Shown piece by piece: positions 11,685-60,129 of a stretch of DNA of 64,000 nucleotides. The position numbers and the translations under genes are program-made. The DNA is from Phreatobacter stygius. GTDB lineage: Bacteria > Pseudomonadota > Alphaproteobacteria > Rhizobiales > Phreatobacteraceae. Where the stretch lies: NCBI RefSeq assembly GCF_005144885.1, contig NZ_CP039690.1:1426001-1490000 (forward strand). The letters are read 5' to 3'. A model generated the notes under the pieces. That model ran no database searches, was not told the DNA's origin, and saw only the letters and a program-made list of their open reading frames with translations. Within the stretch, counting starts at the first letter, position 1; each line of letters opens with the position of its first letter.

Positions 11685-12228
11685 ATTCGCGAATGGCGGC
11701 TGTGAGTTGCTGGATATCCATCGTCTCAGCAAGGGCTGTGTAAAGCTCCTTGCGCGATTTTTTTGACGCGGTTTGCGAAACGCCCTGCCGAACTAGCAGC
11801 TCAAGAGCCTCAGGCCGCCAAAGCAAATGAGCGAGCTGAAACGCGTCAATTTGTGGATTCTGGCGAGCGCGACGAACCGTCGAAAAACTGATCCCACCCC
11901 GAGGGCCTTTCTCAACTTTTATGATGCCACACCAATCGGGCGCCAGCTTATCAACTTGTTCAATGTGGCGAGCGGCGCAAACCAGGGTCAGTTTTTCGAG
12001 GCACTGTCCATAGAGCTCTAACTGGGCAGGCAAACGCACGAGCGTGTCCATGCCGCTCTTAATTTCGTATCCGTGGATACAGCCGTTGATGACTGCCACG
12101 TCAATGCGAGCTTTGGCGTGCGCCAATCCCAGCTCGTCAATCACAATCGTGTTGGGAGCAGATTTGATCGCGCTCAGCCGCTTCAAGTGAAGGGCCTCGC
12201 GAATTTCTTTGTCGTTGGTGACAGCCAT
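11638..12228 (-). CDS. sce7726 family protein, PD-(D/E)xK nuclease-like
   Basis: A 196-residue protein on the strand opposite to its beta-family neighbour, tail to tail with 47 bp overlap. Residues 40-58 read ARIDVAVINGCIHGYEIKS; Asp43, Glu55 and Lys57 have the spacing of a PD-(D/E)xK nuclease core (D...ExK), with Glu32 upstream as a possible fourth residue. That is a direct observation; nuclease activity is inference. Family members sit beside beta-family proteins in variable regions, which supports a role in phage or plasmid defence. The start at 12228 is followed by the highly charged MAVTNDKEIREALHLK typical for the family. Confidence 0.75.
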   Translation of the reverse strand: MAVTNDKEIREALHLKRLSAIKSAPNTIVIDELGLAHAKARIDVAVINGCIHGYEIKSGMDTLVRLPAQLELYGQCLEKLTLVCAARHIEQVDKLAPDWCGIIKVEKGPRGGISFSTVRRARQNPQIDAFQLAHLLWRPEALELLVRQGVSQTASKKSRKELYTALAETMDIQQLTAAIREFMQLRRSWRDRPAHV

Positions 12229-51342: not shown

Positions 51343-51614
51343 GACCGCCCCCGTCCCCAGTTGCGTGCCAATCTATCGCAAACCGCCGCCACCCGATCTT
51401 GGCGAAAATTGCTCCGTGGTTCGACCCGCGAACAGCTTTGCAGCGACGCCGGCGCGCCGCAGGCCCATCGATCGCGGGCCATTGCAATCCCTGGCGGGAT
51501 TGCCTACCAAGGTCCGGGCGATGGGCGCTAAATCATTGAATTAGCTTCACATTGACGATGGCTGCAGCCACCTCGGGGGCCGCCGCCGGATCTGCCGCTG
51601 GAGAGGGCCCGATC

Positions 51615-54275
51615 ATGCCTCAGGGAGCGCGCGGCGTCACGGACACCTCACGGCTGCCGGCCCTGCGGTCCTATCAGTCGTGGATCGCCAACGAGACGCT
51701 CGAGGATTATTCGCTGCGCTACGCGGCCCGCTCGTTCCGCCGCTGGTCGCCTTTCGTCATTGCCAATACCGCGCTTGGCGGCATCTCCTTCCTGGCGCTG
51801 GAAGCCATCGGCGGCGCCATCACGCTGAGCTACGGCTTCGCCAATGCCTTTCCGGCGATCCTGGTGGTCTGCTTCTTCGTCTTCGTCACCAACCTGCCGG
51901 TCGCCTATTATTCCAGCCGCTACAATATCGACATGGACCTGCTGACGCGCGGCGCCGGTTTCGGTTACATCGGCTCGACGATCACCTCGCTGATCTACGC
52001 GACCTTCACCTTCATCTTCTTCGCGCTCGAAGGGGCTATCATGGCCCAGGCGCTCCAGCTCTACGCCGACATACCCCTGGTCGTCGGCTACATCATCTCG
52101 TCCCTGGTCATCATCCCCATCACCTTCATGGGGGTGACGATGATCTCGAGGCTGCAGATGCTGACCCAGCCGATCTGGATCGCCATGCTGCTGACGCCCT
52201 TCGCCTATATCGCGATCGGCCATCCGCAGGTGTTCAAGCAATGGCTGGCCTTCACCGGCAGCGACCAGGGCGGCGGCCAGTTCGACGCCCTGGCCTTCGG
52301 TTCGGCGGTGGGCGTGCTCTGCGCGCTGGCGATCCAGATCGGCGAGCAGGTCGACTACCTGCGCTTCCTGCCGGACAAGACCCGGCAGAACCGGTTCCGC
52401 TGGTGGCTGGCGGTGATTGCCGCGGGTCCGGGCTGGATCGTCATTGGCGGCTTCAAGATCTTGTGCGGCAGCCTGCTGGCGGTGCTGGCGGTCTCCGCCG
52501 GCCTGCCCCGCGCCACCGCGCTCGAACCCATCCACATGTATATCAAGGCCTATGAGTTCGTCAGCGCCGATCCGGCCATCGTGCTGGCAGCGGCGGCGAT
52601 CTTCGTGCTGATCTCGCAGGTCAAGATCAACGTCACCAACGCCTATGCCGGCTCGCTCGCCTGGTCGAACTTCTTCGCCCGGGTCACCCACTACCATCCC
52701 GGCCGGGTCGTCTGGCTGGTTTTCAACATCCTGATATCGCTTCTGTTGATGCTGCTCGGCATCTTCCAGACGCTGGAACTGGTGCTCGCGGTCTATTCGA
52801 TCATCGCAACCGCCTGGATCGGCGCGCTGTTCGCCGACTTGGTCATCCTGAAGCCGCTCAAGATCAGCCCCTCCTTCATGGAGTTCAAGCGCGCCCATCT
52901 CTACGACTTCAACCCGGTCGGTTGCGGCGCGATGGTCCTGGCGTCGGTCGTCGGGGTGATCTGTTTCACCGGCCAATGCGGCGCGCTGGCGCAGGCCTAT
53001 GCCGCGCCGATGTCCTTCGTCATCGCGGTGGCCAGCGCCACGCTGATCGGCATCGCCACCAAGGGCCGCTACTATCTGGCCCGCACCCCGGTCGCCATGA
53101 CCGGCACCGGCCAGGCCAGCATTCGCTGCGAGATCTGCGCCCATGACTACGAGCGCCCCGACATGGCCTATTGCTCGTTCTACGAACGGCCGATCTGCTC
53201 GCTCTGCTGCAGCCTGGAATCGCATTGCCACGACGCCTGCAAGACCTCGCTGAGCGCGCTGGAGACGTCGCGGTCGCTCTATCTCGGCCGCTCGTTCACC
53301 GCCAAGATCGCCCCCCATATGGGCCAGCGCCTGCTCAAGGTCGGCGGCGTCCTGGTCGCGCTGGCGGTGGTCACCGCCGCCGTCTTCCTGTTGACCTACC
53401 GGCTGATCGAGCCGCGCCTGGACGGACCGCATCTCGACAACGGGGCACTGCTGCTCCGGGTCTTCCTCGCGGTGCTGCCGCTCCTGTGCATCGGCGCCTG
53501 GTGGATCGTGCTGTCGCACGAGAGCCGCGAACTGGCGGAGCGCGACCTTGTCGCTTCGCTGGAAAAGCTCGGCGAGACGCAGCAGGAGCTGGCGCGCAAC
53601 GAACGGCTGGCCGCGATCGGCCAGATCACCGCCACCGTCAGCCACGAACTGCGCAATCCACTCGGCACGCTGGTGACCTCGGCCGATATCCTGCGCCGGT
53701 CGCTGAAGGATATCGGCGAGCCCGCGGCGGGCGAGTTGCAGCGGCTTCAGCGCAATGTCTGGCGCTGCGTCCGGATCATCGACGACCTCCTGGATTTTTC
53801 GCGCAGGCAGGCACTGGTCCTGGCGCCCATTGCCATCGACGCCTGGGTCGAGCAGCAGGTGGCCGACCAGGACATGGTCAAGGGGCCGACCCTGACCTTA
53901 GACCTTGAAGCCGACACCCATGTGCCGGCTGACGGAGAACGCTTGCGCCAGGCTTTCGTCAACGTGCTCCTGAACGCCGCCCAGGCTTGCGAAGGCCGCG
54001 CGGCCGGCAGCGCCCGGATCGTCGTTTCGACCCGCCGCGACGGCGGCGAGGTGGTTCTCGCCATATCCGACAATGGCGGCGGCATGCGCCCTGATGTCGC
54101 CCAGCGTGTGTTCGAGCCACTGTTCAGCACCAAGGCCTTCGGCGTCGGGCTCGGCATGCCCCTGGTCAAGCGTATCGTCGAGCAACATGGCGGCACGGTC
54201 GCGATCGACACGACCGAAGGCCGGGGAACCACCGTATCGCTCCACCTGCCGGGCAAGCCTGCGAGGCCACAATGA
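51615..54275 (+). CDS. NCS1-type transporter fused to a histidine kinase (transceptor kinase)
   Basis: 886 residues from ATG 51615, chosen for GGAGAGG just upstream; ATG 51558 is possible. Residues about 40-470 are a purine/cytosine permease-like (NCS1) membrane domain with about 12 spans (ANTALGGISFLALEAIGGAI, TRGAGFGYIGSTITSLIYAT, KINVTNAYAGSLAWSNFF). Then a cysteine cluster (CEIC at 505, then CSFYERPICSLCC ... HCHDAC), two more spans (about 580-640), and a kinase core with phospho-acceptor His677 (VSHELRNPLGT), N-box, DNGGGM and GVGLGMPLVKRI. The transporter part probably senses its substrate. Overlaps the next gene by ATGA. Confidence 0.93.
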   Translation: MPQGARGVTDTSRLPALRSYQSWIANETLEDYSLRYAARSFRRWSPFVIANTALGGISFLALEAIGGAITLSYGFANAFPAILVVCFFVFVTNLPVAYYSSRYNIDMDLLTRGAGFGYIGSTITSLIYATFTFIFFALEGAIMAQALQLYADIPLVVGYIISSLVIIPITFMGVTMISRLQMLTQPIWIAMLLTPFAYIAIGHPQVFKQWLAFTGSDQGGGQFDALAFGSAVGVLCALAIQIGEQVDYLRFLPDKTRQNRFRWWLAVIAAGPGWIVIGGFKILCGSLLAVLAVSAGLPRATALEPIHMYIKAYEFVSADPAIVLAAAAIFVLISQVKINVTNAYAGSLAWSNFFARVTHYHPGRVVWLVFNILISLLLMLLGIFQTLELVLAVYSIIATAWIGALFADLVILKPLKISPSFMEFKRAHLYDFNPVGCGAMVLASVVGVICFTGQCGALAQAYAAPMSFVIAVASATLIGIATKGRYYLARTPVAMTGTGQASIRCEICAHDYERPDMAYCSFYERPICSLCCSLESHCHDACKTSLSALETSRSLYLGRSFTAKIAPHMGQRLLKVGGVLVALAVVTAAVFLLTYRLIEPRLDGPHLDNGALLLRVFLAVLPLLCIGAWWIVLSHESRELAERDLVASLEKLGETQQELARNERLAAIGQITATVSHELRNPLGTLVTSADILRRSLKDIGEPAAGELQRLQRNVWRCVRIIDDLLDFSRRQALVLAPIAIDAWVEQQVADQDMVKGPTLTLDLEADTHVPADGERLRQAFVNVLLNAAQACEGRAAGSARIVVSTRRDGGEVVLAISDNGGGMRPDVAQRVFEPLFSTKAFGVGLGMPLVKRIVEQHGGTVAIDTTEGRGTTVSLHLPGKPARPQ

Positions 54276-55501
54276 GCCAGGACCGCCAGCAACCTTTGGC
54301 CCGCGCCGGCGCGGATGGCGCTGCCGGCCCCGACGCCGGCGGCACCAGGCGCAGCGTACTGGTGGTCGATGACGACATCGATTTCGCCGCCAGTCTCGCC
54401 GGCCTGCTGCAGCTCGACGGTTACGACGTCGCGGTGGCCCATGATCCCGAGGCGGCGCTGACTTGCCTCGACCGGCAATCCATCGCGGTGGCGCTGGTCG
54501 ATGTCCGCCTCGGCCTCGGCAACGGCATCGACCTGGTGCGCAGCCTGCGCCGGCGCGATCCGGACCTGGTCTGCGTCATGGTCACCGCCTTCGCCTCGAT
54601 CGATACCGCGGTGGAGGCCCTGCAGGCCGGCGCCTATGACTATCTCTGCAAGCCTTTCCACAGCGAGGACCTGCTCGCGACGCTGGCCCGCTGCTTCGAA
54701 CGCATCACGCTTTATGCCCAGAACCGGCGCGCCGCCGAACGGCTGGGCCAGATCCAGCGGATGGAGGCGGTCGGGCAATTGACCAGCGGTGTTGCCCATG
54801 ATTTCAACAATGTGCTGGCGGTGCTCTACGCCAATCTGCGCCTGCTGCAGGAGCGCGTCACCGATCAGCCCGCGCTGCTCGAGCTGGTCGACGACGCACT
54901 GGATGCGGCCGGCGCCGGCACCGAACTGACCGAACGCCTTCTGGCCTTCGGCAGGGTGCAGCCGACCAACACCACCGTCACCGACCTGCGCGAGCAGCTG
55001 CCGCCGCTGATGCGCATGTTGCGCCGGACGCTTGGCGAGACCATCGCCATTTCGCTGCGCATGGACGGCGATCTCGATGCTCTCGACATCAATCGCATCC
55101 AGCTGGAAACAAGCCTGCTCAACCTCGCCATCAATGCGCGCGACGCCATGCCCGACGGCGGCGACCTACGCTTCGACGCGCGCAACACGATCATCACGCC
55201 TGACCATGCCCATGCCGTGCCGGGCCTCTTGCCTGGCCGCTATGTCGTGCTGTCGGTGATCGACACCGGCCACGGCATGTCGCCAGCGGTACGCGGCCGG
55301 GCGCTCGAGCCGTTCTTCAGCACCAAGACGCCGGGGCACGGCAGCGGGCTCGGCCTGGCCATGGTCGACAGCTTCGTGCGCCTGTCCGGCGGGCGCCTCG
55401 CGATCGACAGCGCGCCGGGTCAGGGCACGACCGTCAATCTCTATCTGCCCAGGGCCGCGGCCGGCGCCGTTCAGGCCTCGGGCGGCGGCGCGAACATGTA
55501 A
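54272..55501 (+). CDS. Receiver domain - histidine kinase protein
   Basis: 409 residues in unusual order: receiver first, kinase second. REC domain about 28-145 with acidic pocket VVDDD and phospho-acceptor Asp77 (VALVDVRLGLG), Lys in YLCKPFHS. The kinase core has His176 (GVAHDFNNVLAV, the type of PAS-less NtrB-like and hybrid kinases), N-box NLAINARDAM, DTGHGMS and GSGLGLAMV. It overlaps the transporter-kinase gene (ATGA), so the two meet in equal amounts; Asp77 is the likely first acceptor of a phosphorelay. Convergent with the OmpR-type gene, 31-bp overlap. Confidence 0.93.
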   Translation: MSQDRQQPLARAGADGAAGPDAGGTRRSVLVVDDDIDFAASLAGLLQLDGYDVAVAHDPEAALTCLDRQSIAVALVDVRLGLGNGIDLVRSLRRRDPDLVCVMVTAFASIDTAVEALQAGAYDYLCKPFHSEDLLATLARCFERITLYAQNRRAAERLGQIQRMEAVGQLTSGVAHDFNNVLAVLYANLRLLQERVTDQPALLELVDDALDAAGAGTELTERLLAFGRVQPTNTTVTDLREQLPPLMRMLRRTLGETIAISLRMDGDLDALDINRIQLETSLLNLAINARDAMPDGGDLRFDARNTIITPDHAHAVPGLLPGRYVVLSVIDTGHGMSPAVRGRALEPFFSTKTPGHGSGLGLAMVDSFVRLSGGRLAIDSAPGQGTTVNLYLPRAAAGAVQASGGGANM

Positions 55502-56208
55502 CCGACACCCCGAATGGTCTTGATGAACTGAGTGTCGCGCGCGTCATCCTGCAGCTTGCGCCTGATCTTGCCGATCAGCACGTCGATGCTGCGGTCATAA
55601 GGCGTCCAGTCCCGGTTCGCGACGATGTCCAGGATCTGCTCGCGCGACAGGATGCGGCCGCGGCGGCTGACCAGCGCTGTCAGCAGCTGGAATTCCTGGC
55701 TGGTCAGCCTGACCTCCTCGCCTCCGGGCGACGACAGCCGATAGCGTGCCGGATCGAGCCGCCAGCCGGCGAAACTCATGACCTGCGACGCATGCTGCGC
55801 GGCCGGATCGCCGGTCGCCACGCGATTGCCGAACCGGCGCAGGACGGTGCGGATGCGCGCCAGGAGCTCGCGCGGTTCGAACGGCTTGGTGACATAGTCG
55901 TCGGCGCCCATCTCCAGGCAGACCACCTTGTCGATCGTCGTGTTCTTGCCGGACAGCATGATCAGCGGCAGGTCGTATTGCAGGCGCAGATTGCGCGCCA
56001 GCGTGATGCCGTCCTCGCCGGCCGGGAAGGTGAGGTCGAGGATGATCAGGTCGAACGACATGTCGGCCAGCGCGCGCCGCATGGCGCGGCCGTCATGGGC
56101 GGCGGCGGTGACATAACCTTCGCTGGTGAAAAACTTGCTCAAGAAACCGCACAGCCGACGGTCATCGTCGACGACAAGGATCCGCGATTTGGCATCGGCA
56201 GCCGACAT
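55471..56208 (-). CDS. OmpR/PhoB-family response regulator
   Basis: 245 residues from ATG 56208; the frame to 56373 adds a Gly/Ala-rich non-family leader. Receiver with Asp58 (LIILDLTFPAGEDG), Lys in DYVTKPFEPRELLAR, and a C-terminal winged helix (VRLTSQEFQLLTALVSRRGR, DRSIDVLIGKIRRKLQDDAR, IKTIRGVGYMF). It is the only DNA-binding member of the surrounding signalling genes and stands divergent to the formamidase gene. A TTACAAA direct repeat lies between them (56430-56446). Confidence 0.95.
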   Translation of the reverse strand: MSAADAKSRILVVDDDRRLCGFLSKFFTSEGYVTAAAHDGRAMRRALADMSFDLIILDLTFPAGEDGITLARNLRLQYDLPLIMLSGKNTTIDKVVCLEMGADDYVTKPFEPRELLARIRTVLRRFGNRVATGDPAAQHASQVMSFAGWRLDPARYRLSSPGGEEVRLTSQEFQLLTALVSRRGRILSREQILDIVANRDWTPYDRSIDVLIGKIRRKLQDDARDTQFIKTIRGVGYMFAPPPEA

Positions 56209-56429
56209 GTCCGAACGATAATCGCAAATCGGCGCGCCGGTCGAGCCGGGCGAAGCACCGACACGCGCCGTAGCCATCCCGGCTCCGGCCGTCGCCGGGC
56301 CGTTGTGCCTGCTCGCGACGCCATTCGGTCCGGCTCCCCGGCCAGGAAAGACCCGATAACCGGCTGAAATCATGCCGCTATCCTTTTCAGCCCCGGCCGT
56401 GCCGGCAATGACGGCACCGGAGCCGGCCT

Positions 56430-56446
56430 TTACAAAAAATTACAAA
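56430..56446. promoter_or_regulatory. Candidate response-regulator site (TTACAAA direct repeat)
   Basis: TTACAAA at 56430-56436 and again at 56440-56446, a 10-bp period that fits tandem binding of an OmpR-type dimer. It is the most AT-rich spot in the 394-bp gap between the regulator and formamidase genes; the rest of the gap (56209-56602) shows no gene. Confidence 0.5.
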
Positions 56447-56602
56447 GCCTCGGGTCTTCGGATTCATCGCGGTTACACGCCCAACCTAGCCTTCCGGTCA
56501 AGACGGCGGCGGCGATCGGGCATGTGTGATGCCCGGCGCCGATGACACGGGGGCGCGGCAAACGTGACCTCCAGTGCGCCTCGAGGTCCTGGGAGGGACA
56601 CC

Positions 56603-57829
56603 ATGCCGAAAACCGTATTCTCGGTGGATCTGAAAAAGGCGCCTGAACAGCAGGCGATCAAGACCCACAACCGCTGGCATCCCGACCTGCCCATGGTCGA
56701 AACCTTCAAGCCCGGCGATGTCTTCCGGGTCGAATGTTACGACTGGACCGGCGGTCAGATCGGCAACAATGACAGCGCCAACGACGTCCGCGACGTCGAC
56801 CTGACCCGTGTCCACTATCTCAGCGGGCCCTTCGGCGTCGAAGGCGCGGAACCGGGCGACCTGATGGTCGTCGATATTCTCGATATCGGCGCCTTCCCCG
56901 AGTCCGAATGGGGCTTCAACGGCATTTTTGCCAAGGAGAACGGCGGCGGTTTCCTCACCGAGCACTATCCGGAGGCGCGCAAGTCCTGCTGGGACTTCCA
57001 GGGCATCTACACGACCTCAAGGCATATTCCACGGGTCCGTTATCCCGGCATCATCCATCCCGGCTTGATCGGCTGCCTGCCGGACCACAAGCTTCTGGCC
57101 GAGGCCAACCGCCGCGAGGCTGCGCTGATCGCCACCGATCCCGAGCGCGTCCCGCCCTTGGCCGCCCCGCCCCATGCGGCGACCGCGCTGATGGGCCAGA
57201 TGAGCGGCGACGCCGCCAGAAAAGCGGCAAGCGAAGCCTGGCGCACGGTGCCGCCGCGCGAGCATGGCGGCAATTGCGACATCAAGAACCTGTCGCGCGG
57301 CTCCAAGGTCTATTTCCCGGTTTATGTGAAGGGTGGCGGCCTCTCGATGGGCGACATTCACTGGTCCCAGGGCGACGGCGAAATCACCTTCTGCGGCGCC
57401 ATCGAAATGGCCGGCTGGATCGATATCGGCGTTGGCCTGATCAAGGGCGGCATGGCCAAATACGGCATTACCAACCCGATCTTCAAGCCGAGCCCGATCG
57501 ATCCGCATTTCGACGACTACCTGATCTTCGAGGGCATTTCCGTCGACGAGCACACCGGCGAGCAATATTACCTCGATGCCCATGTCGCCTACCGGCGCGC
57601 CTGCCTCAACGCCATCGAATATCTCAAGAAATTCGGCTACACTGGCGAGCAGGCCTATATGATCATCGGCACCGCGCCGGTCGAAGGCCGGATCAGCGGC
57701 ATTGTCGACATTCCCAATGTCTGCGCGACGCTCGCCATCCCGACAGCCATTTTCGACTTCGACATCAACCCCAATTCAACCGGGCCCACCCGCCAGGTCT
57801 CCGGGGTCGACGTCGCCAGGACGACCTGA
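56603..57829 (+). CDS. fmdA: Formamidase (FmdA/AmdA family)
   Basis: 408 residues from ATG 56603, preceded by GGGAGGGA; the 56564 frame adds 13. Typical segments: HNRWHPDLPMVETFKPGDVF, FAKENGGGFLTEHYPEARKS, REHGGNCDIKNLSRGSKVYF and SMGDIHWSQGDGEITFCGAI. The enzyme hydrolyses formamide or acetamide to formate or acetate and ammonia in the cytoplasm. The following genes encode the AmiS/UreI channel and FmdB, as in known formamidase operons, and the genes before it form a signalling chain. A nitrogen-scavenging role is very likely. Confidence 0.95.
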   Translation: MPKTVFSVDLKKAPEQQAIKTHNRWHPDLPMVETFKPGDVFRVECYDWTGGQIGNNDSANDVRDVDLTRVHYLSGPFGVEGAEPGDLMVVDILDIGAFPESEWGFNGIFAKENGGGFLTEHYPEARKSCWDFQGIYTTSRHIPRVRYPGIIHPGLIGCLPDHKLLAEANRREAALIATDPERVPPLAAPPHAATALMGQMSGDAARKAASEAWRTVPPREHGGNCDIKNLSRGSKVYFPVYVKGGGLSMGDIHWSQGDGEITFCGAIEMAGWIDIGVGLIKGGMAKYGITNPIFKPSPIDPHFDDYLIFEGISVDEHTGEQYYLDAHVAYRRACLNAIEYLKKFGYTGEQAYMIIGTAPVEGRISGIVDIPNVCATLAIPTAIFDFDINPNSTGPTRQVSGVDVARTT

Positions 57830-57915
57830 ACCGCAGCATCCGCCAATGGCGGGAATGCGTCGCCGGCCGGGGCATGCCCCGGCCCGGGGGATCTGTCTCG
57901 GGGGGAGGTGCAGCC

Positions 57916-58428
57916 ATGCTGCTCGGTCTGAATCTGCTCTATGTCGGCGCCGTGCTGTTTCTCAACGGCCTCTGGCTTCTCGGCAAGGTCGACGACAAGG
58001 AGATCGTCGTCATCAACATCGTCTCGGGTTTCGTGACGCTCTGCGTTTCGCTCTCCTTTGCCTTCGGGCCGGGCGCCAACGCGGCCTCGATCAAGGCCGC
58101 GGCCCTGATCCTGCTGTTCACCACGACCTATCTGTGGGTCGCCTATAACCGGTTCGTCGCGGTCGACGGGCGCGGGCTCGGCTGGTTCAGCCTGTTCGTC
58201 GCCATCACCGTCACCCCGATTTCGGTGCTGAGCTTCACCTCGGCCCAGAGCACCATCGACGTCTGGCTCGGCTTCAACTGGGCCATATGGGCGATCGTCT
58301 GGTTCATGTTCTTCCTGCTCCTGGCCCTGAAGCGCCCGATCCAGCACGCCACCGGTTTCGCCACCCTCGCCGCCGGCGTGGTGACCGGCTGGCTGCCGGG
58401 CTTCCTGCTGCTTCAGGGCAAGCTTTGA
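57916..58428 (+). CDS. amiS: AmiS/UreI family amide or urea channel
   Basis: 170 residues from ATG 57916 with GGGAGGTG upstream. Six membrane spans, starting LLGLNLLYVGAVLFLNGLWL and ending TGWLPGFLLLQ, as in AmiS and UreI, which form hexameric channels for short amides or urea. It follows formamidase by 86 bp. It probably lets formamide or acetamide enter. The predicted pore motifs TYLWVAYN and FNWAIWAIVWF are present. Confidence 0.92.
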   Translation: MLLGLNLLYVGAVLFLNGLWLLGKVDDKEIVVINIVSGFVTLCVSLSFAFGPGANAASIKAAALILLFTTTYLWVAYNRFVAVDGRGLGWFSLFVAITVTPISVLSFTSAQSTIDVWLGFNWAIWAIVWFMFFLLLALKRPIQHATGFATLAAGVVTGWLPGFLLLQGKL

Positions 58429-58484
58429 TCCGTGCCGGGCGGGCGCCAGGTCCGCCCGGCCGCTTGTCGTTCCAGGAGACGGAA

Positions 58485-58784
58485 ATGCCGCTCTACAATT
58501 ATGTCTGCAACGCCTGCGGCCCGTTCGAGTCGTGGTCGTCCATGTCCGAGGAAGACCGCGGCTGCGCCTGCCCGGACTGTTCGGGTGCCAGTGAGCGCGA
58601 TGTCGCAGCCCCTCATCTCGGCCTGATGAACACCACGCTCAGGCGGGCGCTCGCCCGCTCGGAAAAGAGCACCAGCGAGCCGAGCGTCGTCAAACGCAGT
58701 CATCTCGCCGGCTGCGGCTGTTCGCTCTGCAAGGTCAGCAAGAAGCCGCCGTCGGTGCGCCGGCGCTGGATGATCGGGCATTGA
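58485..58784 (+). CDS. fmdB: FmdB-type zinc ribbon protein
   Basis: 99 residues from ATG 58485. N-terminal zinc ribbon: MPLYNYVCNACGPFESWSSM, with a CNAC ... CACPDC pair, as in FmdB, first described as a regulator of formamidase in Methylophilus. A second Cys cluster (GCGCSLCKV) lies near the C-terminus. It follows amiS by 56 bp. FmdB was proposed to regulate fmdA; a role in maturation is also conceivable. Confidence 0.9.
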   Translation: MPLYNYVCNACGPFESWSSMSEEDRGCACPDCSGASERDVAAPHLGLMNTTLRRALARSEKSTSEPSVVKRSHLAGCGCSLCKVSKKPPSVRRRWMIGH

Positions 58785-58863: not shown

Positions 58864-60129
58864 TCAGGCCGCGTTGCTCCGCGAGGTGGCGAGCGCGCCG
58901 ATCGCGTCGGCGGTCGCCGCCGACAGGGTCCAGCCGAGATGGCCGTGGCCGGTATTGTAGAGCACACGCGGGTTCCGCCCGCGCATGACGCGCGGCAGCA
59001 TGTCCGGCATCATCGGACGCAGGCCGGCCCAAGGCACCACCTGGCGGGTGTTGATGCCCGGGAAATGCGCCCGGCACCAGGCGATCAGCGGGTCGATGCG
59101 CTCGGCCCGGATGTCCTTGTTGGCGCCGTTGAACTCGGCCGTTCCGGCAACCCGGAAACGCGCCGCGCCCAGCCGGCTGGTGACGATCTTGGCCTTGTCG
59201 TCGAGCAGGCTGGTCCAGGGTGCCGCATCCTGGTCGGCCTGGTCCGGCAGGTTCACCGTGATCGAATAGCCCTTGACCGGATAGACGTTCACCCGGTCGC
59301 CGACCTGCCGGCCGAGCTCGCGCGACATGACGCCACCACAGACGACGACCTGGTCGAACCGGTCGATCCCGACCGGCGCATCGCCGGCTTCCGTCGTAGG
59401 CTCGACCGACCGGCTGGAAATGCTGACCGCCAGATCGGTCGCGGCGACATGGGTGACCTCGGTCGCCAGCCGCATGGTGACGCCGAGCCGCTCGCAGGCG
59501 CGCGCCAGGCCATGGGTGAACTTGTGAATGTCGCCGGTGAAATCGGACGGCGTGTAGAAGCCACCGTAGAATTGGCCCTTGAGCGCCGGCTCGATCGACC
59601 GGATTTCCTCCGGCGTCACCGCGCGCCGTTCGAGCCCGCCCTTGGCGAGCAGTTTCGAGACACGCGCGGCCGCCTCGAAATCCGCCTTGGTGTGGTAGAA
59701 GTGCAGGATGCCGCGGGTTTCGCAGTCGAAGTCGATGCCCTCTTCCACCGCCATGCGGATGAGATGGGCCCGGGCTTCGACAGCGAGGCGGGCCGTCGAG
59801 ACGGTGTTCTCTTCATATTTCGGGATCGCCGCGACGAACTCGGCCATCCAGGACAGCTTGTGCCAGGACGGCGTCGGGTTCACCAGCAACGGCGCCCCTG
59901 GCGTGAACATCCATTTCAGCCCCTTGAGCACGGTCGCCCAGCTGTTCCAGACCTCCGCATTGGACGCCGACAGCTGCCCGCCATTGGCGAACGACGTCTC
60001 CATCGCGGCATAGGGGTGGCGGTCGAAAACCGTCACGCGGCAGCCGCGCTTGGCCAGATTATAGGCTGTGGTGATGCCGGTGATGCCCGCGCCGATCACG
60101 GCGACCTTGGGCCCTTGCTCTGAATACAT
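58864..60129 (-). CDS. dadA: D-amino acid dehydrogenase small subunit family (DadA)
   Basis: 421 residues. N-terminal FAD motif VAVIGAGITGITTAYNLAKR, the family ANGGQLSASNAEVW segment, and C-terminal GLRPMMPDMLPRV ... YNTGHGHLGWTLSAATADAI. It oxidises D-amino acids to 2-oxo acids and ammonia, passing electrons to the respiratory chain. It sits behind a tandem glycine riboswitch, so its expression responds to glycine; this suggests that glycine, or a compound that accompanies it, is the physiological substrate. RBS GGAAGGAG before ATG 60129. One-gene unit. Confidence 0.93.
   Translation of the reverse strand: MYSEQGPKVAVIGAGITGITTAYNLAKRGCRVTVFDRHPYAAMETSFANGGQLSASNAEVWNSWATVLKGLKWMFTPGAPLLVNPTPSWHKLSWMAEFVAAIPKYEENTVSTARLAVEARAHLIRMAVEEGIDFDCETRGILHFYHTKADFEAAARVSKLLAKGGLERRAVTPEEIRSIEPALKGQFYGGFYTPSDFTGDIHKFTHGLARACERLGVTMRLATEVTHVAATDLAVSISSRSVEPTTEAGDAPVGIDRFDQVVVCGGVMSRELGRQVGDRVNVYPVKGYSITVNLPDQADQDAAPWTSLLDDKAKIVTSRLGAARFRVAGTAEFNGANKDIRAERIDPLIAWCRAHFPGINTRQVVPWAGLRPMMPDMLPRVMRGRNPRVLYNTGHGHLGWTLSAATADAIGALATSRSNAA

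Follow-up and report, generated by a model that had tools for sequence, protein, structure and literature searches.

An NCS1-type transporter-kinase beside a formamidase operon in Phreatobacter stygius, a candidate detector of small amides or urea

What does a histidine kinase detect when its membrane half resembles an NCS1-type permease, and does it govern the formamidase genes that lie beside it? Both questions are raised by a locus of Phreatobacter stygius (contig NZ_CP039690.1), where a block of six genes spans positions 51,615 to 58,784 of the stretch of DNA that we analysed (the window: 64,000 nucleotides, 1,426,001-1,490,000 of a 7.35-Mb single-contig genome). The block encodes a transporter-histidine kinase that we call NHK, a second kinase with a receiver in front (REC-kinase), an OmpR-type response regulator, and the products of fmdA, amiS and fmdB. 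An earlier, model-made annotation (the original prediction) had read these six genes from the sequence, including the union of permease, cysteine cluster and kinase in one chain, and Pfam and NCBIfam models, profile comparison and fold prediction bear this inventory out. Our answer is that the cell probably detects small amides or urea through NHK. We consider it likely that the block forms a dedicated nutrient-sensing circuit for a short amide, most likely formamide and perhaps urea, in which NHK would act through the REC-kinase and the OmpR-type regulator on fmdA-amiS-fmdB.

The membrane half of NHK

The features of NHK, all on the + strand, are as follows.

51615..54275, +: NHK (working name), 886 aa, an NCS1-type transporter joined to a histidine kinase (Pfam: HisKA and HATPase_c)
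51726..53018, +: NCS1 transporter domain, residues 38-468 (hhalign, AF2 model, PDB fold search)
53127..53243, +: cysteine cluster C-x2-C-x11-C-x7-C-x2-CC-x5-C-x3-C, from C505 to C542
53319..53555, +: two extra predicted long helices, residues 569-598 and 609-647 (AF2 model, block pLDDT about 43-76)
53619..54254, +: HisKA (His677 in HELRNP) and HATPase_c (PF00512, PF02518)

Simple searches missed the transporter domain. No Pfam transporter domain matched the single NHK protein up to E 10, PF02133 and PF00474 included, and the domain also went unrecognised in PDB sequence searches with the single protein and with the profiles A1 and A2. The A2 alignment has 40 rows, 16 of short forms such as NHK and 24 of hybrid forms that carry a receiver behind the kinase (L011, L013, L015, L018, L020, L027, L055 and the window's own L030 are omitted), while A1 omits L020, in which the kinase is frameshifted. 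Compared with a single NCS1 sequence by hhalign, the A2 profile reached only E 0.23. Against A3, a profile of eight PF02133 proteins that on its own retrieves Mhp1 and CodB with E-values between 4e-69 and 5e-49, it aligned over 394 columns at E 7.6e-15 and a probability of 98.4, and control comparisons gave E 0.17 for sodium-solute symporters (SSF) and E 0.38 for AA_permease_2. An AF2 model built from the 40 sequences of A2 (mean pLDDT 76, pTM 0.80), in which the first core helix is broken at residues 56-59, returned Mhp1 or CodB as its five best PDB matches (E 4.9e-9 to 9.9e-8; TM-score by target length 0.66-0.76), with other families following from E 4.4e-6 upward; a first model made from 21 close sequences was discarded (pLDDT 50). 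We kept the NCS1 label because profile-profile and fold tests support it after the simpler tests had missed it, and kinship of the membrane half to NCS1 is shown by computation, from alignment profiles and a predicted fold. The one match of PF02133 itself in the genome is an ordinary NCS1 permease at another place, not this locus, and 20 relatives gave none. We found no second copy of the NHK transporter half in the genome, since the many matches outside the locus fall in the kinase half and all begin at a residue numbered at least 577.

The same fold and profile matches could belong to a genuine carrier. The domain would then transport a nucleobase, hydantoin or allantoin, hydantoins and cytosine being, by their PDB names, what the solved NCS1 proteins transport; the kinase would report that compound, and the fmd genes would be one of several nitrogen targets. 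We judge this improbable, and one point against it is Lys337, which is invariant across the 40 rows of A2. By our own reading of the alignments, Lys337 corresponds to Mhp1 Ser312 in the hhalign register and to Ala309 in an ungapped register. The Na2 site of Mhp1 comprises Ala38, Ile41, Ala309, Ser312 and Thr313 (PMC3812048, available in part), and because Ser312 and Ala309 both belong to it, Lys337 maps to the Na2 cation site. None of eight ordinary NCS1 proteins has a Lys in the aligned stretch. A lysine aligned with the Na2 position argues against Na+ coupling of NHK, which may be Na+-independent.

Behind the transporter domain, all eight residues of the cysteine cluster are likewise invariant in the 40 rows of A2. 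The cluster had no significant match in Pfam, and the A2 profile met only two zinc-finger chains in the PDB at non-significant values (E 2.7 and 3.4); possibly it is a metal site. The two extra helices between the cluster and the kinase are probably membrane helices, judging from the model. The transporter part is better kept than the kinase part, with about 77-81% identity in relatives against 41-51% where a kinase match was kept; in the nearest relative, L009, the figures are 95% and 64%. In the circuit that we propose, the NCS1-fold domain would do the sensing and might in addition act as a carrier of low capacity. A bound ligand would shift the alternating-access state of the domain, and the signal would travel via the cysteine module and the two extra helices to the kinase.

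Gene block, TTACAAA box and proposed circuit

The remaining features of the block are listed here.

54272..55501, +: REC-kinase, 409 aa, with receiver (Asp77), HisKA (His176 in HDFNN) and HATPase_c
55471..56208, -: OmpR/PhoB-type response regulator (Asp58; PF00072 and PF00486)
56430..56446, +: TTACAAA-N3-TTACAAA, a direct repeat with a period of 10 bp, putatively bound by the OmpR-type regulator
56473..56477, +: third conserved half-site TTACA downstream of the repeat (all 10 rows of A6 share TTAC)
56603..57829, +: fmdA, formamidase (NF045496, E 3.9e-229, 760 bits, cut-off 500)
57916..58428, +: amiS, channel for amides or urea (AmiS/UreI family; PF02293, E 7.9e-59, 198.9 bits, cut-off 25)
58485..58784, +: fmdB-like zinc-ribbon protein (TIGR02605, 47.7 bits, cut-off 31.3)

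The anatomy of the block is conserved. A pattern-based scan of genome contigs, which finds close relatives only, gave 21 relatives, and in 17 of them NHK, REC-kinase, OmpR-type gene, fmdA, amiS and fmdB follow one another in this order. The other four comprise L012 and L028, which are cut by contig ends, L011, which is without the second half at that place, and the variant L026; fmdA was found in the genomes of all four, in that of L028 as pieces under the cut-off only. We dropped L011 (Nitratireductor pacificus) as a counter-example, its OmpR-type gene, a perfect box, fmdA, amiS and fmdB standing together elsewhere in the genome; the split may reflect a genuine rearrangement or stem from the assembly. 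L012 is likewise completed within its own genome, where the fmdA stretch holds the OmpR-type gene, the box, amiS and fmdB. In L026 (8503-14052), from the Betaproteobacteria, NHK stands beside fmdA-amiS-fmdB and no match to the REC-kinase or the OmpR-type gene was found; between its kinase and fmdA sits a GerE (LuxR-type) regulator, and the H-box has the variant HEINTP. A downstream frame of L026 has a translation that by eye resembles a receiver followed by an EAL-like stretch. In a tree of the 40 transporter parts, a branch with 100/100 support separates the 16 short forms, among them L026, from the rest. The second kinase has a bigger build in deeper relatives. L024, L019 and L022 have a receiver on either side of the kinase, and L019 and L022 also have PAS and a GAF match, the latter strong in L022 but weak in L019. 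The NHK gene of L020, a metagenome-assembled genome of Nitratireductor (isolate pb3), is frameshifted at 11779-11796 and the rest of its block is present.

The gene boundaries needed some care. NHK has an alternative TTG start at 51552 (907 aa), and L009 shares MPQG at the 51615 start. The start of the REC-kinase overlaps the NHK stop (ATGA). The OmpR-type gene had been described as convergent, which holds for its relation to the REC-kinase, whose 3' end it overlaps by 31 nt, and not for fmdA, from which it is divergent. Its longest open reading frame begins at 56373; we moved the likely start to MSAADAK at 56208, close to where relatives begin to match. Among the 25 of 89 NCBIfam matches listed for this regulator none reached its cut-off, and we assign it to no named member. 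The fmdB-like product scored 76 bits against NF053663, under the cut-off of 120. Convergent after fmdB lies a D-amino acid dehydrogenase gene (58864-60129, -; NF009074 above cut-off), with a match at the equivalent place in L009 and none kept in the other 20 relatives.

The direct repeat that had been noted before fmdA is present and conserved. With up to two mismatches of 14 allowed to TTACAAA-N3-TTACAAA, the box lies by the OmpR-type gene in each of the 21 places that have this gene, namely the window, 18 of 18 loci, and L117 and L118, the second halves found later in the genomes of L011 and L012. At the same setting none was found in the L011, L012 and L026 stretches, all three without the OmpR-type gene. 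In the upstream alignment A6, the columns TTACAAAA, TTACA and the downstream third TTAC are invariant at a mean column identity of 50%. A6 covers 10 of the 18 complete blocks (the window and 17 loci); it omits L023, L024 and L029, in which the stretch upstream of fmdA has no box, and L009, L015, L018, L020 and L027. The core TTACAAA-N3-TTACA occurs exactly once in the 7.35-Mb genome, at fmdA, and no wider regulon is visible by that site, a point against the carrier reading.

In L023 (6916-8527), L024 (14966-16526) and L029 (15987-17745) a LuxR-type frame lies between the OmpR-type gene and fmdA, with GerE by Pfam in L024 and similar C-termini in L023 and L029. The box near the OmpR-type gene stands before the inserted frame in L023 and within the longest possible frame in L024 and L029, where the true starts are unsure. 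These three loci also have a palindrome close to CACCCCTAGGGGTG before fmdA, seen in none of 39 other sequences scanned with up to two mismatches. The arrangement suggests that a second regulator may have been inserted into the chain. The CACCCCTAGGGGTG-like palindrome as a general LuxR site was unsupported, as it was not found in L026.

That the signalling genes control the fmd operon, as had been proposed, draws its support from conserved gene order, the pairing of box and OmpR-type gene, and the proximity of kinase and fmdA, which is comparative rather than experimental evidence. In the circuit as we picture it, the His677 kinase would act on the Asp77 receiver of the co-translated REC-kinase, which would set the phosphorylation of the OmpR-type regulator at Asp58. 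The regulator would bind TTACAAA-N3-TTACAAA and switch on fmdA-amiS-fmdB; the amide would enter through AmiS and be split by FmdA to formate and ammonium. The residues agree with those of the original prediction (Asp58 counted from the 56208 start), which had arranged them as a linear relay His677 > Asp77 > His176 > Asp58. For a receiver Asp to hand its phosphate on to the DHp His within the same kinase would be unusual, and on general grounds control of the REC-kinase by its phosphorylated receiver seems likelier than such a relay.

Formamidase and urea-type neighbours across the kinase family

We searched samples of 385 genomes from the class and 398 from the phylum, which share some genomes, with an NHK profile and with NF045496 for FmdA. 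The phylum sample had NHK in 54 genomes and FmdA in 40 (both 39, kinase only 15, FmdA only 1, neither 343); the class sample had NHK in 26 and FmdA in 21 (both 17, kinase only 9, FmdA only 4, neither 355). The genes are also neighbours. Within a limit of 15 kb, 39 of 43 FmdA copies in the phylum sample lie near an NHK copy (largest distance 11.8 kb), as do 12 of 22 in the class sample. Conversely, 39 of the 57 NHK copies counted in the phylum sample are near FmdA, the 57 being drawn from 62 kinase match rows with five fragments or second pieces omitted.

Such proximity might be no more than positional inheritance, with a sensor of nitrogen limitation that travels with the fmd genes and controls something else. 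Kinase-positive genomes without FmdA would fit this. Against it stand the 39 of 43 FmdA copies near a kinase, which occur in two architectures, the way the box goes with the OmpR-type gene, and the preservation of the box amid columns of 50% mean identity; we regard it as very improbable.

Most members of the wider family differ from NHK in length. Within the class sample the short form was present in the window's genome only, the 25 other positives being 24 longer frames (1120-1243 aa) and one fragment; two of the longer frames were scanned and read HisKA-HATPase-REC. The phylum sample held further short frames in G577 and in one G480 copy, about 3 kb from fmdA. G480 (contigs C3 and C4) has both the short and the long kinase form, each near its own fmdA copy. 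We read the neighbourhoods (L056-L075) of 20 of the 25 other class positives, long or fragmentary, without G033, G230, G246, G326 and G343. This sister group has the hybrid NCS1-Cys-HK-REC, and all 20 loci have, close to the kinase, a match to a REC-LuxR regulator, often in divergent orientation to a urea- or amide-type ABC operon. FmdA together with a urea-type ABC transporter was present in 11 of the 20 loci, such a transporter without FmdA in six, and neither in three; one of the six, L074, was counted on UrtA only in the 13 kb read. No AmiS match was seen in the 20 loci, and sensor architecture seems to track the uptake route, an AmiS channel or an ABC transporter. A scan of the 20 hybrid loci for the TTACAAA box with up to one mismatch gave one match, in L073, about 8 kb from the kinase.

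Formamide, short amides or urea, and their uptake and use, are the common denominator of the kinase family. With this genomic company (formamidase, amide channel, urea-type ABC transporter) the signal would be a short amide or urea, and a purine or hydantoin is not supported as the likely ligand. The company also speaks against a carrier for such compounds, with the reservation that only formamidase, amide channel and urea-type ABC genes were scored and that hydantoinase, allantoinase and purine-catabolism genes were not searched for.

Urea might be what the transporter domain senses throughout the family, with formamidase under a linked urea/amide regulon. In favour are the six of 20 sister-group loci with a urea-type ABC transporter only and the binding protein of L068, which is NCBIfam UrtA above cut-off. 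The short form, in contrast, accompanies fmdA and amiS in the genomes of 21 relatives (fmdA pieces only for L028), and the binding protein beside FmdA is of a different class, with 38-42% identity to L068 UrtA against 69-98% in the other five FmdA-less loci. A Urt-like transporter linked to FmdA in Bradyrhizobium has been read as probably moving another amide (PMC3098086, as far as its text was available). We hold urea sensing throughout the family to be unlikely, though the least unlikely of the alternatives.

Several points weigh against a dedicated short-amide circuit. The Fisher values for co-occurrence (9.7e-20 for the class, 1.9e-40 for the phylum) ignore shared ancestry and come from overlapping samples, and several of the relatives are close kin (six Nitratireductor, two Stappia). 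The kinase occurs without FmdA in 15 of 54 positive phylum genomes, two of which (G615 and G665) are positive by short partial matches, and in 9 of 26 class genomes; for the nine, seven loci were fetched, and six of these lie beside urea-type transporter genes. Of the class genomes with FmdA, 4 of 21 are without the kinase. Because kinase-only and FmdA-only genomes exist, what NHK detects may instead be urea or a more general cue for nitrogen. Upstream of the window's kinase gene we found no box, and in L023, L024 and L029 (3 of 21) the box stands at the inserted LuxR-type gene and not directly before fmdA. The backwards control likewise has one genomic match, and the single match of the box core thus shows rarity, not function. 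The original prediction had named regular occurrence of the signalling genes without an amidase operon as evidence against itself. For the short form this was not seen, all 20 six-gene-type relatives having fmdA (pieces in the genome of L028), while the kinase-only counts above show that in the wider kinase family it is partly the case.

NHK among known transporter-kinases and formamide systems

A fusion of transporter and kinase as such is already known. CbrA, CrbS/MxtR, RpuS and PrlS are SLC5-type transporter-kinases (PMC7918813 and PMC9100948, both available in part). Like these, NHK unites a LeuT-fold transporter and a histidine kinase in one chain, and CbrA also has a Lys at the Na2 site: the side chain of K196 occupies that site, and the uptake of histidine requires the proton motive force and not sodium (from the parts available of PMC13022988 and PMC7918813). 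Unlike these, the NHK transporter is of NCS1 type, with no PF00474 match and E 0.17 in the SSF profile comparison; its linker is a cysteine cluster with two predicted helices, its output would run via the REC-kinase and the OmpR-type regulator, and its company is amide use. A Pfam scan of NHK gave only HisKA and HATPase_c, the presence of a STAC model in Pfam being unchecked. NHK may work like an SLC5/STAC sensor kinase, yet it is not a member of that group. RpuR, too, works by a direct repeat that stands in front of a single operon (PMC9100948, same excerpt).

None of the literature matches listed, seen as titles and abstract openings and with subscription papers mostly outside, concerned an NCS1-kinase fusion or a formamidase two-component system. 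'NCS1' and 'Mhp1' do not occur in PMC13022988, nor 'two-component' and 'histidine kinase' in the available part of the formamide review PMC10781810. An NCS1-type fusion is thus not described in the literature searched, which is not proof of absence. The LeuT-fold transporter-kinase fusions in that literature are of SLC5 type, and an NCS1 class would mean that a second LeuT-fold family was recruited to give a kinase its input. The chances seem to us even that NHK represents a separate, widespread class of transceptor-kinases, with an NCS1-fold receptor for a tiny amide or urea, a Lys in place of the Na2 cation that arose independently of SLC5-type CbrA, a cysteine coupling module, and two architectures that track the uptake route: split (REC-kinase and OmpR-type output) and hybrid (REC-LuxR output). 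If such a class is real, sensing by transport versus sensing by binding could become testable with a very simple ligand. NHK is also a named candidate sensor for formamide use, and the locus offers a compact reporter of one box and one operon.

NHK resembles Mhp1 (2jln, 4d1a) and CodB (7qoa) in fold and profile and differs from them in its fusion to a kinase, in Lys337 at the Na2 position and in lying beneath Pfam detection. The 5TMR sensor kinases, which share the fold of the ECF S-component and have been termed prokaryotic transceptors (PMC11109136, in part), likewise use a transporter fold as kinase input, a small S-component fold as opposed to the LeuT/NCS1 fold of NHK. LvrB of Leptospira has a receiver before its kinase, as has the REC-kinase, which scored 67 bits against NF047466 (cut-off 500) and is not of the same family. 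In Methylophilus methylotrophus, formamide and urea induce the fmdCABDEF cluster, which comprises formamidase, a putative regulator and uptake genes (PMC10781810, available part). As described, its uptake genes encode a porin and a binding-protein transporter, whereas the window pairs the formamidase with an AmiS channel and two-component genes.

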